DNA from: a marine bacterium B5-7
Lineage (GTDB): Bacteria; Pseudomonadota; Gammaproteobacteria; Arenicellales; CAJQKF01
Direction of reading: 5' to 3'
DNA: 64,000 nt
NCBI GenBank assembly: GCA_021604525.1
Contig: BQJD01000003.1
Location: forward strand, 138,242-202,241
Position 1 is the first letter of the stretch; every line of letters starts with the position of its first letter. Positions 18,512 to 25,827 of the stretch are shown in pieces. A model generated the notes under the pieces. It made no database searches, was not told the origin of the DNA, and was given only the letters and a program-made list of their open reading frames with translations. A program made the translations under genes and the position numbers.

Positions 18512-20164
18512 ATGGAAACCAGTTTGAATCGTGATAACCGGTATGACCATTCGAGATGGTCTATTGCGCATGTCATTGAACACCAGAGTATTGTTCGCAG
18601 CAAGCAAGTCTTCATAACCTGTGAAGATGAATCACTGACCTATGGACAGGCGTATTCAGATGCCGGTCGAGTATCGAATTATCTAGCCCTGAACGGAGCA
18701 GAAGTGGGTGATCCAGTTGCCGTTATGCTGCAAAACGGTCTCGAATTTTGCCGTATCTGGCTCGGCTTGGCACGGCTTGGCGCTGTACATGTTGCCGTGA
18801 ATACGGACTACCTGGGCCGTTTCCTCGTTCACGTGTTAAATAACTGTGAGGCACGCCTGATAATAGTAGATGCGAGTTATCTTGAGCGGATTGCCGATAT
18901 TGTCGATGAACTTCATTACGTAAAGAAAATATTGATAGTTGATAGCAATGTCAGCAGCCCGTCCATCGACTTGAATACCCGCTTCGATTTTACGATACCC
19001 CGATCACGAGGAGTTATTGAGATCGATATATTCTCAAAGTGGCGACAGTGCAATGACACCATCGACTTTGAGCCACCCACTTACAAGGATGTTGGTTGTG
19101 TTATGTACACATCCGGAACCACGGGTCCGTCCAAGGGTGTGCTGATGCCTCATGCACATCTCTACTTGTTCGGACTTGGTACCATTGAGCATTTCCAACT
19201 TGATGAAAATGATGTGTTTTATATTGTTCTACCGTTGTTTCATGCCAACGGTCTTTTCATGCAACTCTATGCGACCCTGATTGCCGGAGCCCGGGCAATC
19301 ATCAAGCGGCGTTTCAGTGCGAGTGCGTGGCTAAGCGATATCGTTAAATATCAGGCAACCGCTACCAATTCACTTGGTGCGGTGGCAGCTTTTGTCCTTG
19401 ATCAACCGCTGGGCGATATGGACAAAAAACACAATTTGAGAGTGATGGGATTGGCACCGGTGAGTGCGTCTTTGGAGGAACGACTGAAAGAACGCTTCGC
19501 CATCTCCCGGATCGTTGGCTTATACGGAATGACGGAGATTAATATTCCGCTTTACACTCATGTTGATGTTGATAAACCGAATAGTTGTGGCCGGGTGTGG
19601 GATCGTTATTACGAACTTATGATAGTTGATCCGGTAACGGATGAACAAAGAAAGTCGGGTGAGGTCGGAGAGATTGTCGTCCGACCGAAGCAACCGTTTG
19701 GATTTATGTCTGGCTATTTGAATATGCCGGACAAAACAGTCGAGGCGTGGCGCAACTTCTGGTTTCATACCGGTGATGCTGCATGGATGGACGATGACGG
19801 TGATGTCTTTTTCGTTGACAGAATCAAAGACTGCATTCGCAGGCGTGGTGAGAATATTTCGAGCTTTGAAGTGGAAAATGCTATTGCAGATTTTCCTGGA
19901 ATTCGTGAAGTGGCTGCTTATGCGGTGTCATCATCCATTGAAGGTACTGAGGATGAAGTGATGGTGGCTGTTGTTGGTGATGAAGAAAATATTGATGTGG
20001 ATGCGATCAGGGAATACCTCGCATCACAATTGCCATCCTTCGCGATCCCCCGATATATCAGGTTGATGTCGGAATTGCCCAAGACTCCAACAGGGAAAAT
20101 CCAGAAACACCTTCTGCGTCAGCAGGCGATTACGGAAGATACTCGCGACTACGCGAAATCTTGA
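18512..20164 (+). CDS. AMP-forming acyl-CoA synthetase/ligase (CaiC-like)
   Basis: The protein has 550 residues and belongs to the ANL adenylating superfamily: it activates a carboxylate with ATP, then transfers it to CoA. The motifs are YTSGTTGPSKGVLMPHAHLY (P-loop), LYGMTEINIPLYTHV, WFHTGDAAWMDDDGDVFFVD and DRIKDCIRRRGENISSFEVE, ending with TPTGKIQKHLLR carrying the catalytic Lys. The overall pattern resembles the crotonobetaine/carnitine-CoA ligase group. A good terminator follows at 20196. The substrate is unknown, and no dehydratase or CoA-transferase is adjacent. Confidence 0.88.
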   Translation: METSLNRDNRYDHSRWSIAHVIEHQSIVRSKQVFITCEDESLTYGQAYSDAGRVSNYLALNGAEVGDPVAVMLQNGLEFCRIWLGLARLGAVHVAVNTDYLGRFLVHVLNNCEARLIIVDASYLERIADIVDELHYVKKILIVDSNVSSPSIDLNTRFDFTIPRSRGVIEIDIFSKWRQCNDTIDFEPPTYKDVGCVMYTSGTTGPSKGVLMPHAHLYLFGLGTIEHFQLDENDVFYIVLPLFHANGLFMQLYATLIAGARAIIKRRFSASAWLSDIVKYQATATNSLGAVAAFVLDQPLGDMDKKHNLRVMGLAPVSASLEERLKERFAISRIVGLYGMTEINIPLYTHVDVDKPNSCGRVWDRYYELMIVDPVTDEQRKSGEVGEIVVRPKQPFGFMSGYLNMPDKTVEAWRNFWFHTGDAAWMDDDGDVFFVDRIKDCIRRRGENISSFEVENAIADFPGIREVAAYAVSSSIEGTEDEVMVAVVGDEENIDVDAIREYLASQLPSFAIPRYIRLMSELPKTPTGKIQKHLLRQQAITEDTRDYAKS

Positions 20165-20233: not shown

Positions 20234-20275
20234 CCCCGAAAGAGAATAAATGAATTTCGAGGTCGCCTACCAGAC

Positions 20276-20542
20276 TCAAGGCTTCTCTTTATCCGAATCG
20301 CCCGACTTTGAACCGACATCCTTCATGGATTTCCAAAACAGGTTCTGCATGGTTTCGAACGACTTGAGATTACCGGTCAGGAAGGGTTCCATCAGTTTGA
20401 CAGGATCGTAATCGGTCACGCCATCAGTTACCCGCTTGCGAATTTCTTCCATCAATTCCTGTTGAATTGCAGTTACATCCGGAAGCCCTAGAAAACGACG
20501 CAGTTCCTCGGGACTGATATCAATCTCGATATTGATCTTCAT
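20276..20542 (-). CDS. DUF6489-family small protein
   Basis: This 88-residue soluble protein starts MKINIEIDISPEELRRFLGL, then PDVTAIQQELMEEIRKRV, and ends with a charged tail. The opening, a beta strand plus the EELRRFLGLPDV run, is what I recognise as the DUF6489 family, whose function is unknown. It follows the TRAP large-permease gene by 26 bases on the same strand and is probably co-transcribed with it. Confidence 0.7.
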   Translation of the reverse strand: MKINIEIDISPEELRRFLGLPDVTAIQQELMEEIRKRVTDGVTDYDPVKLMEPFLTGNLKSFETMQNLFWKSMKDVGSKSGDSDKEKP

Positions 20543-20568
20543 TATGTAATACGTATTTCAACAATTTG

Positions 20569-23226
20569 TTAAAAGTATAGCGAGATATCCTTATGATGCG
20601 AGCGGCAACTGGCGATTACCTCAGCTTGATCACTTGTCAGTCGAGATTGCAGCCTCATGCCGATAGACTCCTTCAACAGGTCGTCGTAGTTCGCCAGTTG
20701 TTCGCCCAAGGTATCGGCTGCTTTCTGTCGCCAAGTGAGTTCTGTGCGATACGTTTGTATAGCGTCCTCAAGCTTTTCCATTGCCGCTGTACGATTTGGG
20801 TTTTCCCCTTTAAATTCGCGGCGAACTTTTGCAAAAGCCGAACGAATCTGGCTCGCATCAGTAAGAGAAGAAAATTGACTTTCAACCTCCTTTAAGCGCT
20901 CTGTAGCAGCACTCGGAGATTCATCCAGAACAACCTGTCTTAAGGCTTCGACCGATTGATCGAGTGCGGCTAGCTGTTCAACTTCAGTCAGCACCTGATT
21001 GAGTTCCTGTATTGGCTCGTAGGCGTCATCGACACCACGACGATATGCAAGGCGTGCCTTGTTCTGACTATCTGCCAGTTCCAGAAATTGCTTTCGTGCA
21101 TCATCCCATTCCGACGGTAATGATTCATTCAGTTCAACTTTATGACGCTCTAATTTTTCTATAGCAGTAGTCAACTTAGCCAGTTGTTCATCAGAGGCGC
21201 CTTCTTGGGTCTCACGTCGGTAGCGCTGATCGATCTCTGCAATTTTCTCATCAATGCCGCGCAACTCTCTTTGAATGTTGCGCACCTTGCGATGTAACGG
21301 TCGATAAGATTCAGCGTATGTTTCTATAGCCTCGTCGGTAGTTTTAATTCCTTTCAGGTTTTCAAAACTTGCCAAGGCCGATACAAATGACGCTTCAATT
21401 TTGCTACGCGTCTTGGCGGGTAGTACAGATAGATCGACTTTGCTCATGGCATTAATCCGATCCTCCAGCATATCTCGATTTTCCTGAAAATAGCCGGCCA
21501 TGTATTCTTCGATACATTCCTGTAGTTGAGGATTTTGTGGTGGTGGTGCGGTTGGTGAAGTCAGGAATGTACGGCTCGGCAGAAAATTTACCAGTGGCGG
21601 GTTAAAACCAACAATGGCTAGTGCAATCAGTTGCAATACAATAAAGGCAATGGCACCGCGATAGATTTGTGTGGTCTTAAGGGACGGTGGGGCTACACCT
21701 CGAAGATAAAATAGTGAAAAGCCGAACGGTGGTGTCAGGAACGATGTCTGCATATTAATGCCCACCATGACACCAAGCCACACGGCAGTGACATTGGCGG
21801 ATGGGTCAGCTAACAGTATCGGCGCCATGATCGGCACCACCACGACTGCGATCTCAATGAAGTCCAGGAAAAACCCCAGTACGAAAATTACTGCCATGAC
21901 GACAATGAACTGTGCCCAAAATCCACCCGGCAGGCTGGTCAGGAACTCTTTCACCAATTCCTCGCCACCGAAACCACGAAAAGCAGCGGTCAACATGGCA
22001 GCACCCAGCAGGATAATAAATACCATTGAGGTGGTTTTAGCCGTCTCGATGCAGACGCCGCGAAGAGTGTTGTCGATCTTGAATGTGCGCCATGCACTCC
22101 ATAAAACGGCTGTGAGCAAGCCGATCACGGCAATACCAGCCATGGCAATCCCGGAGTAATCATCGGGTGTTGCGTTTTTGATGTTGAGATCGTAGTTACG
22201 ACTGAAAAAGAAGATGAAACCTACAGATATCCCGGCGAGGATTGCTGGATAGTAGGCGCTGCGCTTCCCCTCAAAAAGGCGATAGCCGGCCATAATCATG
22301 GCGCCGATGGCACCGATTGCGCCTGCCTGATTGACAGTCGCGATACCGGCGATGATGGAGCCGAGTACAATGACAATTAATGCCAGGGGTGGGACCAGAG
22401 CCAACACGACCCGAACGGCGAAGCGAAGATTGATTTTTCCCTCGAAATGAACCGGCGGCGCCAACTTCGGTCGAATCAGCGCAACGATGAGGATGTAAGC
22501 CATATAAAGTCCGACAAGAATCAGACCGGGAATAAAAGCACCGAGAAACATCTCACCGGCACTGGTTGAGGTGACGTCAAACACCGAGGGCATATTGAAT
22601 TCGCCGGTAGCGAATTTATAGGCGGTTTTTCGTAAAGTCGCGGCCTGATCAGCGGCGCTTGAAAGCTGATCTGCGAGAATAATCAGAACAATGGATGGCG
22701 GAATAATTTGCCCCAATGTACCGGAAGCGCAGATCGTGCCGGCGGCAAGAGGTTTGGAATAGTTGTTGCGCAGCATGGCGGGTAAGGAAATAAGACCCAT
22801 TGCCACAACCGTAGCGCCTACAATTCCGGTGGTAGCGGCGAGCAGTGCGCCAACGAATACGACTGATATGCCCAGCCCACCCGGTATGGGACCGAATAAC
22901 TGAGCCATGGTAACCAGCAGATCCTCGGCAATCTTTGATCGCTGCAGCATGATACCCATGAAAATAAACAGCGGTATCGCTATCAGCGTATCTCGCTCAA
23001 CCTCCCAGTACACTCCCCTGAAATTTGTAATGCCTGCAGTCAACCATTGGGTCGGGCCATCGTGGGCGAAAAACGCGCTGGCATCACCTACGAATAGATA
23101 GCCACAAAGTGCCGCGAGAGAGATTGTCAGAATAGCTGAGCCAGGCAAGGCGAAAGCCACCGGAAAACCGGAGCTTAATGCACTGATCATGATCAGCAAA
23201 AGAATTGTGAGAAATACCAGTTCCAT
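20569..23226 (-). CDS. dctM: TRAP transporter large permease (DctM) with long coiled-coil C-terminal extension
   Basis: The product has 885 residues, far longer than usual DctM subunits (about 430-600). Residues 1 to about 548 form the membrane domain: many hydrophobic segments, DTLIAIPLFIFMGIMLQRSK, GALLAATTGIVGATVVAMGL, ASGTLGQIIPPSIVLIILAD, then QTSFLTPPFGFSLFYLRGVA near its end. After a Pro-rich linker (about 555-570, SPTAPPPQNPQ) comes about 315 residues of charged, heptad-like helix with runs such as LHRKVRNIQRELRGIDEKIA. TRAP systems import organic acids using Na+ gradients; DctM is the carrier. It lies 26 bases after dctQ. The extension is in frame with no disruption, so it is a genuine fusion rather than two genes. 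Confidence 0.9.
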   Translation of the reverse strand: MELVFLTILLLIMISALSSGFPVAFALPGSAILTISLAALCGYLFVGDASAFFAHDGPTQWLTAGITNFRGVYWEVERDTLIAIPLFIFMGIMLQRSKIAEDLLVTMAQLFGPIPGGLGISVVFVGALLAATTGIVGATVVAMGLISLPAMLRNNYSKPLAAGTICASGTLGQIIPPSIVLIILADQLSSAADQAATLRKTAYKFATGEFNMPSVFDVTSTSAGEMFLGAFIPGLILVGLYMAYILIVALIRPKLAPPVHFEGKINLRFAVRVVLALVPPLALIVIVLGSIIAGIATVNQAGAIGAIGAMIMAGYRLFEGKRSAYYPAILAGISVGFIFFFSRNYDLNIKNATPDDYSGIAMAGIAVIGLLTAVLWSAWRTFKIDNTLRGVCIETAKTTSMVFIILLGAAMLTAAFRGFGGEELVKEFLTSLPGGFWAQFIVVMAVIFVLGFFLDFIEIAVVVVPIMAPILLADPSANVTAVWLGVMVGINMQTSFLTPPFGFSLFYLRGVAPPSLKTTQIYRGAIAFIVLQLIALAIVGFNPPLVNFLPSRTFLTSPTAPPPQNPQLQECIEEYMAGYFQENRDMLEDRINAMSKVDLSVLPAKTRSKIEASFVSALASFENLKGIKTTDEAIETYAESYRPLHRKVRNIQRELRGIDEKIAEIDQRYRRETQEGASDEQLAKLTTAIEKLERHKVELNESLPSEWDDARKQFLELADSQNKARLAYRRGVDDAYEPIQELNQVLTEVEQLAALDQSVEALRQVVLDESPSAATERLKEVESQFSSLTDASQIRSAFAKVRREFKGENPNRTAAMEKLEDAIQTYRTELTWRQKAADTLGEQLANYDDLLKESIGMRLQSRLTSDQAEVIASCRSHHKDISLYF

Positions 23227-23252: not shown

Positions 23253-24275
23253 CTAGTGAACAGGAGCAGATTCCAGTTGTGGAACCTCTGCGCCTCGAAT
23301 GACCGCGACACTTCGCAGAAAATAACTGATGAATTGCACCATCATCGATATTGCATAGATCAGCAGAAATCCGGCCATCAGGTATTTGGTATACATGCCA
23401 AAGCCACTTTGCGAAATTTCATGATTCAGTAATGGGCTGGAAATAATGCTGGATTTACTACTCAAACCACGACTCAGGATAATCCAGCATATGGGAACTC
23501 CCAGCATTAGCGAACCGATAGCGTTAGCCCAGGCTTTGCTTCGGTCGGAAAAATACGCATAGACAACGTCGACTCGGACATGACCCTCATGGATGAGCGT
23601 GTAGGAGCTGGCGAAAAGGAATAGTGCGGCATACCAGAAACGTACCAAATCGCCCATGAATGCCTGTTCGTAAGAAAAGATGAACCGTGCAATAACGATC
23701 TGAAACTCGGCAATGACAACCAGAATTGCCAACCAGTGAAAACCGATGGAACGAGTGAAATATGCGATGACCATGGATGTGACGATTAACGGATAATGCA
23801 CATGAGTGCTTCTATACTCGGGCCGTCCGAGTTGAGTAATCAATCCCTCCGAGATCCAACCGGACAGCATTTCCTCAATTCTCATGAATGAGATAACCAT
23901 ATCGGCCAGGCCGACCAGCAATACTGACCAGAACGCGGCACGGATAATAAAAGCGGATATCGATGCAAACGTATCTGAATCCATGAGCAGGCTTCGTTTT
24001 GGACCAGCTGAGACGAATGTAAACACCGCGACAAGCGCCAACGGGTAGATCAACAGTTGAGACCAGGCTAGTAATAATGTGTTGCCGGATAGTAGATATC
24101 GCTCATCACCACCAAAATGCTTGAACAGTGCTTCCGTCCCCGGCCATTCAAGCCAGAAGGTCAAGTAACTATTCAAGAGAAATGCCACCATTGCCGCGAA
24201 AAGAATCCAGGCAACAAGCCGAACAGTGAAATCGATACCGTCAGTGGCTATGCCCGCGTTTTGAGAACTGGTCAT
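23253..24275 (-). CDS. dctQ: TRAP transporter small permease (DctQ)
   Basis: The 340-residue membrane protein is longer than the usual DctQ of 160-230 residues. The core DctQ signature lies in the second half (FWYAALFLFASSYTLIHEGH, then VRVDVVYAYFSDRSKAWANA), with extra N-terminal transmembrane segments as found in large DctQ subunits paired with mannitol/chloroaromatic-type binding proteins. It precedes dctM by 26 bases and is separated from dctP by 224 bases containing a terminator hairpin. Confidence 0.88.
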   Translation of the reverse strand: MTSSQNAGIATDGIDFTVRLVAWILFAAMVAFLLNSYLTFWLEWPGTEALFKHFGGDERYLLSGNTLLLAWSQLLIYPLALVAVFTFVSAGPKRSLLMDSDTFASISAFIIRAAFWSVLLVGLADMVISFMRIEEMLSGWISEGLITQLGRPEYRSTHVHYPLIVTSMVIAYFTRSIGFHWLAILVVIAEFQIVIARFIFSYEQAFMGDLVRFWYAALFLFASSYTLIHEGHVRVDVVYAYFSDRSKAWANAIGSLMLGVPICWIILSRGLSSKSSIISSPLLNHEISQSGFGMYTKYLMAGFLLIYAISMMVQFISYFLRSVAVIRGAEVPQLESAPVH

Positions 24276-24499: not shown

Positions 24500-25591
24500 T
24501 TACAGCCCCAGTACGCGATTACGCTGATTGATGTAGGCAACATCCGAAATCTTCGCCCAGCCACCCACTTCCGAACGAGCGCTGAGGAAACTCTCGTGGA
24601 TGCGCTTGGCAAGATCACTGTGTGCCACAACTTCTGCAAACACTTCATCGGCGGCTACACCGAAGCTGTCGTAAACGTCATCGTTGAATTCACGCAATTC
24701 GACGCCTTGCTCCTTGATCAACTTGGCAAGTGAAGCACCGTTCTTGGCATTGTATTCCGACATCATCACATCGTTTTCCATCGATGCAGCGGCTTCAATG
24801 ATTATTTGATCAGACTTCGACAGACTTTCCCAGAATTCCTTGTTCATGCCGCATGAAAGCATTGAACCCGGTTCATGCATACCCGGATAGTAATAGTACT
24901 TGGCGGCTTCGTAGAATTTCATTGCCGCATCATTCCACGGACCTACCCATTCGGTTGCGTCGATTGCGCCGGATACCAGATTTTCGTAGATCTGACCGCC
25001 AGGCAGGGAAACCGGTGAGGCGCCAAGTTTGGCGATGACATCGCCACCAAGACCCGGCATACGCATTTTTAATCCGTTGAAATCGTCTGCAGATTCGATT
25101 TCCTTGTTAAACCAGCCGCCCATCTGGACGCCGGTGTTACCGCACATCAGGTTTTTTAGTCCAAAACCGCCAGCCAACTCGTCCCATAGTTCCTGACCAC
25201 CGCCGAATCGGATCCAGGCATTGATTTCGGTATAGGTTAATCCAAACGGAACTGCAGTGAAGTAGGCCCAGCCCGGATGCTTGCCTTTCCAATAGTAATC
25301 AGCACCGTGGTACATCTGGGCGTTGCCGGATGCAACTTCATCAAATGAATCAAATGCACCAACACGTTCGCCTGCAGCAAAGTACTGCACCTGAATACGG
25401 CCGTCCGTCATATTGGTAATACGCTCAGCGAACCGTTGGGCACCTGTACCGAGCCCCGGGAAATCACGCGGCCAGGTACTGACCATATTGATTTCGATGC
25501 GATTTTGGGCAATGGCCGGTGCAGCGATTGTCGATGCGCCGGCGGCAGCGCCAGCGGCGGCAGCGCCTTTTAGAAGGTCACGTCGTTTCAT
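24500..25591 (-). CDS. dctP: TRAP transporter substrate-binding protein (DctP, mannitol/chloroaromatic type)
   Basis: The product has 363 residues. The leader MKRRDLLKGAAAAGAAAGAS, followed by a hydrophobic stretch ending AIAQ, resembles a Tat signal, so it is periplasmic. The mature start (IEINMVSTWPRDFPGLGTGA) and the run GAIDATEWVGPWNDAAMKFY are typical of TRAP binding proteins annotated as mannitol/chloroaromatic type; these commonly bind carboxylates such as alpha-keto acids. ATG 25591 has an excellent site (AAGGAG, 8 bases upstream); an upstream in-frame codon at 25627 lies before it and is unlikely to be used. Confidence 0.9.
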   Translation of the reverse strand: MKRRDLLKGAAAAGAAAGASTIAAPAIAQNRIEINMVSTWPRDFPGLGTGAQRFAERITNMTDGRIQVQYFAAGERVGAFDSFDEVASGNAQMYHGADYYWKGKHPGWAYFTAVPFGLTYTEINAWIRFGGGQELWDELAGGFGLKNLMCGNTGVQMGGWFNKEIESADDFNGLKMRMPGLGGDVIAKLGASPVSLPGGQIYENLVSGAIDATEWVGPWNDAAMKFYEAAKYYYYPGMHEPGSMLSCGMNKEFWESLSKSDQIIIEAAASMENDVMMSEYNAKNGASLAKLIKEQGVELREFNDDVYDSFGVAADEVFAEVVAHSDLAKRIHESFLSARSEVGGWAKISDVAYINQRNRVLGL

Positions 25592-25604
25592 TAAAGAACT
25601 CCTT

Positions 25605-25626
25605 ATGTATTTCAATATGTATTTCA
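25605..25626. repeat. Ten-base direct repeat upstream of dctP
   Basis: ATGTATTTCA occurs at 25605-25614 and again at 25617-25626, a 12-base period, immediately upstream of the dctP Shine-Dalgarno (complement of 25599-25604). It may be a binding site for a regulator or RNA, or chance in A+T-rich DNA. Confidence 0.3.
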
Positions 25627-25827
25627 ACTATTTCTGAAATAAACAACGGTGAAGTTGTGTTCCAGTTTTTGGTGACTTATGAGCACGGGTGTGCCATCGG
25701 ATCGTAAAGCCAAGCCAGGCAAATGCAATCGTAAATAATTACCACCCCCAGCAACTGGAGTATGTTAGCAACGTTTCACTGGGCAGGCAAAAAGTAATTG
25801 CTTCCCAAAGTCAACTAATATATAAAT

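Follow-up and report, generated by a model that had tools for sequence, protein, structure and literature searches.

A conserved, predicted periplasmic helical arm on the DctM subunit of a TakP-type TRAP transporter clade

TRAP importers serve organic-acid uptake in many marine heterotrophic bacteria, and their large permease subunit, DctM, typically ends soon after the last transmembrane (TM) helix. This habit, a typical trait rather than a criterion of family membership, is broken in a 64,000-nucleotide stretch of DNA from the marine gammaproteobacterium B5-7 (hereafter the window), where one DctM runs on for ~330-335 residues beyond the usual end. What is this extension, on which side of the membrane does it lie, and what might it do for the transporter? 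The question touches on a wider one: there is no settled account of how the elevator is met and served by a soluble, sometimes dimeric substrate-binding protein (SBP), and the purpose of the TakP-type dimers has been open since 2007.

Architecture of the cassette and of the DctM membrane domain

The cassette and the membrane part of DctM comprise the following features.

24500..25627, minus strand: DctP substrate-binding protein of the TakP type, with a Tat signal (TakP 2hzk, E=6.4e-75)
23253..24275, minus strand: long DctQ, 340 aa, matching PF04290 only at residues 193-323, with ~165 added N-terminal residues
23781-24275, minus strand: the N-terminal addition of DctQ, ~165 residues with several hydrophobic segments, outside the PF04290 range
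20569..23226, minus strand: ORF of the extended DctM, 885 aa, frame open throughout
21559..23226, minus strand: DctM membrane (elevator) domain, residues 1-556 (PF06808, E=3.4e-63; model matches 7qha_B at TMt 0.74, and 9pym)
22078..22251, minus strand: additional helix pair, residues 326-383, between the two halves of DctM (AlphaFold2; gap against PpSiaM; weakly conserved)

The three adjacent ORFs match PF03480 (E=9.4e-54), PF04290 (E=1.6e-08) and PF06808 (E=3.4e-63, Pfam scan of the 885-aa ORF), respectively, as expected of a DctP-type TRAP; Q and M are encoded by separate genes, and the permease is not of the fused-QM or TAXI-TRAP kind. The order DctP-DctQ-DctM recurs, among the loci listed, wherever the contig extends far enough. 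The window thereby encodes all three parts of a DctP-type TRAP transporter of the TakP kind, which belongs to a known family.

The DctP probably starts at the ATG at 25591, and its nearest solved relatives are TakP (2hzk, E=6.4e-75) and other binders of 2-oxo acids or TRAP substrates. For the pyruvate/cation site of TakP, PMC1839085 names Y99, Y100, Q156, R177, E214, W215 and E240; the window DctP shares every one of these residues, as do 68/68 members of its family. As all seven are kept, homology suggests that the likely substrate is a 2-oxo acid (or a similar monocarboxylate) together with a cation. The alignment runs to residue 352 of the 365 of TakP, into the region that forms its swapped dimerisation helix. 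Beyond local Pelagibacteraceae synteny, no recurrent neighbour of the cassette that would name the substrate was found. A small ORF (MKINIEIDISPEELRRFLGLPDV...) lies directly downstream of dctM at approximately window positions 20262-20545 on the minus strand, and no widely recurring gene occupies this place at the other loci. An AMP-forming acyl-CoA synthetase-like ORF (18512-20164, plus strand) faces the cassette and is not a recurrent neighbour either.

The membrane part of DctM closes at ~residue 550 with the DctM end motif FxPxLVNxLP, and a profile alignment places the C-termini of HiSiaQM, FnSiaQM and PpSiaM at the same point. The first-pass annotation, made from the letters alone, had put the end of the membrane domain near residue 548, followed by a long uninterrupted tail to residue 885, and had held that DctM subunits normally stop soon after the last helix; the alignment and the open 885-aa frame agree with it on each count. 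Structural similarity search of the membrane-part model using Foldseek retrieved the TRAP QM structures 7qha_B (TMt up to 0.74), 9pym (IseQM), 8thi and 7qe5, which identifies an M subunit with the INDY-like elevator fold. The additional helix pair (residues 326-344 and 354-383 in the AlphaFold2 model) has no PpSiaM equivalent in the profile alignment and is of low conservation. Inserted between the inverted halves of DctM, it preserves the parity of the topology.

The DctQ was described at first pass as extra long too, and at 340 aa, against about 165-170 aa in the short class of relatives, it is. TakP-type systems from the genome of the window and related genomes fall into three classes. The extended class combines a Q of 325-375 aa with an M of about 885 aa, and its DctPs are 61-85% identical to the window DctP at the loci listed. 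The intermediate class (DctP 51-53% identical) has a Q of 244-267 aa and an M of 542 aa with no extension. The short class (DctP about 41% identical), to which the paralogue L002 of the window's own genome belongs, has a Q of 164-170 aa and an M of mostly 517-522 aa. The length of DctQ hence tracks the type of DctM across the three classes (about 164-170, 244-267 and 325-375 aa), and at nearly all readable loci listed a DctQ of mostly 325-375 aa stands alongside the ~885-aa DctM. At one locus (L086, 7695-9586), a short additional DctQ-DctM pair of 168 and 461 aa comes immediately after an extended cassette.

Fold, conservation and distribution of the extension

Past the membrane domain, DctM comprises the following features.

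21532..21558, minus strand: Pro-rich linker, residues 557-565 (consensus SETAPPPxN), conserved in 106 homologues
20572..21531, minus strand: predicted periplasmic all-helical domain, residues 566-885, of near-constant length in 106 homologues (AlphaFold2 pLDDT 96, pTM 0.86; fold without a match)
20986..21417, minus strand: predicted long antiparallel helical hairpin, residues 604-747, with its tip near residues 675-678 (helices 604-674, 679-701 and 707-747)
21514..21516, minus strand: Cys571, invariant in 106/106 homologues, presumed disulfide partner
20605..20607, minus strand: Cys874, invariant in 106/106 homologues, presumed disulfide partner
20572..20607, minus strand: C-terminal motif C-x-S-x-H-[RK]-D-I-S-L-x-F, residues 874-885, with F885 the last residue in 106/106

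AlphaFold2 modelled the extension, with 49 homologues, as all helix and with high confidence (pLDDT 96, pTM 0.86). In the full-length model, which is all-helical and lacks TM helices after residue 556, the helices span residues 566-595, 604-674, 679-701, 707-747, several short stretches, 812-851 and 865-875. The helix 604-674 alone has 71 residues, about 105 Å by helix rise. Since helices 604-674 and 679-747 succeed each other across a short turn, their predicted secondary structure indicates that they should make an antiparallel hairpin of roughly 100 Å. A heptad-like repeat reaches significance in two of the helices, 604-674 (best period 3.45, 0/500 permutations) and 707-747 (period 3.6, p=0.002). 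The extension is thus the genuine long, mostly helical and partly coiled-coil tail behind a Pro-rich linker that had been surmised from the letters.

Searches with the extension returned little else. Pfam gave no match above cut-off for residues 557-885 and only coiled-coil noise, Pfam and NCBIfam together only weak coiled-coil resemblances (SMC, TPR_MLP1), and a PDB sequence search coiled-coil noise again; neither Pfam nor NCBIfam has a name for the domain. Foldseek found no similar fold among the 50 best rows against the PDB (best E 0.19, TMq <=0.26) or the 50 best against BFVD (best E 0.029). On this model, the fold of the arm is apparently new with respect to the two libraries compared, PDB and BFVD. 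No open-licence PMC paper describing the domain was found, and the papers found on SAR11 or Ruegeria transporters did not assign a function to the cassette with the long DctM, in line with the first-pass remark that the extension is not known to have a described function.

The extension has a mean pairwise identity of ~35% among its 106 homologues (74 clusters at 60% identity), and is less conserved than DctP or the DctM membrane domain. The linker, which joins the membrane part to the helices with the consensus LTSETAPPPxNP, contains with the first arm residue four invariant positions (P561, P562, N565 and P566). Conservation is highest in the linker, at several places in the base (P603, R649, W707, D733/Y736 and W832-R833) and in the motif CxSxH[RK]DISLxF; it is lowest at the tip of the hairpin, which carries indels. 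Exactly two cysteines occur in the extension of 106/106 homologues, C571 just past the linker and C874 twelve residues before the end; unlike these, the membrane-domain cysteines vary. All 106 extended proteins finish precisely at the final F of the motif.

A search with the extension alone matched 53 of 100 relatives; apart from some fragments where a contig breaks or the frame shifts, the matches run over the full length within the DctM ORF. A wider species search confirmed 566 candidates as relatives of the query (E<=1e-3), and among its 80 best contigs nearly all hold a full or near-full extended DctM, mostly at 54-62% identity; one contig-end fragment is 79% identical. The architecture, mostly 882-890 aa in length, recurs in about 80 or more species records, and hosts among the 80 best contigs are Pelagibacteraceae (SAR11), Rhodobacterales-type and other Alphaproteobacteria, many Gammaproteobacteria, SAR324 and Thermodesulfobacteriota. 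In the phylum as a whole the protein is uncommon, with 7 positive genomes among 398 drawn evenly. An assembly or frameshift artefact, or a chance open frame, is rejected as virtually impossible, given the identical architecture in about 80 or more independent species records and 53/100 relatives, and invariant columns that continue to the last residue.

Membrane-domain matches in the relatives split into those at least 69% identical, which are extended or fragmentary, and those at most 50% identical, which are unextended. No orthologue that had lost the extension was seen among the relatives, where extended matches are short only through contig ends or frameshifts; nor did the extension occur as a separate gene in the genomes searched, every match lying in an M-length ORF or in a contig-break or frameshift piece, and a plasmid search gave no match. 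In a membrane-domain tree, a branch supported at 100/100 sets all sampled extended DctMs apart from the others, with a single change of state, so that a single acquisition is the simplest reading of the sequences, with long branches flanking the supporting branch. The extension, conserved across the whole clade and fused only to DctM in the genomes searched, is a standard domain, as the first-pass annotation had considered possible, of one clade of TakP-type TRAPs. A distant relative (genome G379) holds two extended copies, L120 and L126, with open frames of 888 and 903 aa.

Location and possible role of the arm

Cryo-EM of PpSiaQM showed both ends of the M subunit on the outer side (N-out/C-out) and assigned TM10-12 to the transport domain, the part that moves (PMC9971032). 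The family-mean loop charge of DctM sums to about +9 in the predicted-inside loops and about -7 in the predicted-outside loops. Taken with the fold match to PpSiaM and the invariant cysteine pair, these data argue that the extension is very probably periplasmic. That C571 and C874 never change, in an extension of only ~35% mean identity and beside variable membrane cysteines, is the pattern expected of a disulfide formed under oxidising conditions, and the two are presumed to be bonded. The C-out topology, the loop charges and the two cysteines would thus make the arm a periplasmic, disulfide-closed domain. The first-pass annotation had instead proposed a cytoplasmic scaffold, tether or sensor, and charged, heptad-like helices are indeed common in cytoplasmic scaffolds; against the topology of M subunits (PMC9971032), the fold match (TMt 0.74), the loop charges and the cysteines, a cytoplasmic location is very probably wrong and was rejected. 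Of that proposal, a tether survives as a possibility on the periplasmic side; the cytoplasmic scaffold or sensor does not fit.

What might such an arm hold? TakP is a helix-swapped tight dimer, for which a lasting attachment to the membrane partners was proposed as possible (PMC1839085). Docking predicted that the second TakP protomer points upward from QM, and in HiSiaPQM the C-lobe of the SBP was proposed to move with the elevator (PMC9352664). We infer, with about even confidence, that the arm is a clamp or tether that holds the dimeric DctP on the transporter. This reading is favoured because the arm should be suspended from the elevator's final helix on the side where DctP docks, and is plausible because about 100 Å could reach along an upward-pointing dimer of the TakP type. 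Homology and conservation support a last DctM helix that belongs to the moving transport domain, ends in the periplasm and bears the arm, in which the Pro-rich linker leads into a helical domain presumably closed by the C571-C874 disulfide and drawn out into the predicted hairpin of about 100 Å. The conserved, membrane-proximal base might dock on the surface of QM, on the DctP seated there, or on both, while the hairpin would rise beside the DctP dimer, with the second protomer of that dimer facing away from the membrane. In this way the arm could keep or correctly orient the dimeric binding protein while following the elevator movement, and may raise capture efficiency at low substrate concentration. 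As the tip of the hairpin is very variable, it probably makes no specific contact. The recurrent company of a TakP-type DctP and a long DctQ seems to speak for a clamp on DctP, as does, by analogy, the claw of VcGluQM. Armless TakP-type systems with presumably dimeric DctP exist in the genome of the window, and the arm is therefore not needed for the docking of a dimer as such.

The main rival places the partner in DctQ: the arm would lie folded across the periplasmic face as a brace for the membrane part, pair with the added N-terminal helices of the long DctQ instead of DctP, and so rigidify a larger scaffold. Long Q and long M co-occur, conservation concentrates at the base and C-terminus of the arm, and in an exploratory mirror-tree analysis the extension showed its strongest partial correlation with the N-terminal addition of DctQ (r 0.51), compared with 0.44 for the membrane domain and 0.12 for DctP. 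Tested by parts against DctP, also as an exploratory comparison, the base gave 0.20 and the tip -0.22. As weak evidence, these values seem to fit a Q partner at least as well as a DctP clamp. However, both the extension and the DctQ N-terminus evolve fast, and the correlation may be an effect of saturation; moreover, in the intermediate class Q is already somewhat longer (244-267 aa) with M unextended, and a hairpin of ~100 Å exceeds what a brace needs. We consider the brace rather unlikely.

Less probable again is a spacer or anchor towards the peptidoglycan or outer membrane, or an oligomerisation rod that joins transporters. A rod-like hairpin with a divergent tip would suit such a role, and periplasmic-adaptor coiled coils reach comparable length (EmrA, 127 Å; PMC4158417), but Pfam and NCBIfam scans revealed no peptidoglycan-binding or adaptor domain, the variable tip speaks against a specific distal partner, and an outer-membrane partner gene is absent from the cassette.

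The clamp on DctP also has a bolder form, which we hold to be doubtful: a DctP-type permease might keep its dimeric SBP permanently docked through a purpose-built, disulfide-closed arm mounted on the elevator, with the outer protomer capturing substrate and the inner one delivering it, as a new class of TRAP. Such a membrane-bound pathway was proposed for TakP in 2007. If true, the class would count SAR11 among its users.

Comparison with known transporters

What is new here is a domain unnamed in the libraries searched, with no fold match and no described counterpart found among such transporters. It is a conserved elevator attachment that Pelagibacteraceae and many marine lineages carry, while sister systems of the same genomes lack it, and it offers a testable handle on how SBP and elevator work together.

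The cassette is related to TakPQM of Rhodobacter sphaeroides (TakP 2hzk/2hzl), to whose TakP the window DctP is homologous over its length, with the seven site residues shared and the alignment reaching into the swapped-helix region, and whose DctQ and DctM families are the same. The window M of 885 aa and Q of 340 aa nevertheless exceed the 517-542 aa and 164-267 aa of the unextended TakP-type relatives compared, which come from the window's own genome and related ones. The SiaQM transporters of Photobacterium profundum and Haemophilus influenzae (7qha, 8thi and 7qe5) share the M membrane fold and topology with the window DctM, but stop right after the last TM helix and have neither a periplasmic domain nor the helix pair between the halves.

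By analogy of position, the nearest counterpart of the arm is the claw of VcGluQM, the TAXI-TRAP of Vibrio cholerae, which is unrelated in fold. The claw is periplasmic, sits on the transport domain and is predicted to stabilise SBP docking (PMC11574862). It is a mainly β domain (DUF3394) set between extra TM helices of a TAXI system, whereas the arm is all-helical, about 330 aa long and placed directly after TM12 in a DctP-type system whose Q and M are separate proteins; Pfam found no DUF3394 in the extended DctM. If the arm holds DctP, permease-borne periplasmic docking domains would extend from one TAXI group to DctP-type TRAPs. The maltose ABC importer, a precedent noted in PMC11574862, shares the idea that the permease may grip its SBP through a periplasmic domain, although its transporter class and fold are unrelated to those of the window TRAP.
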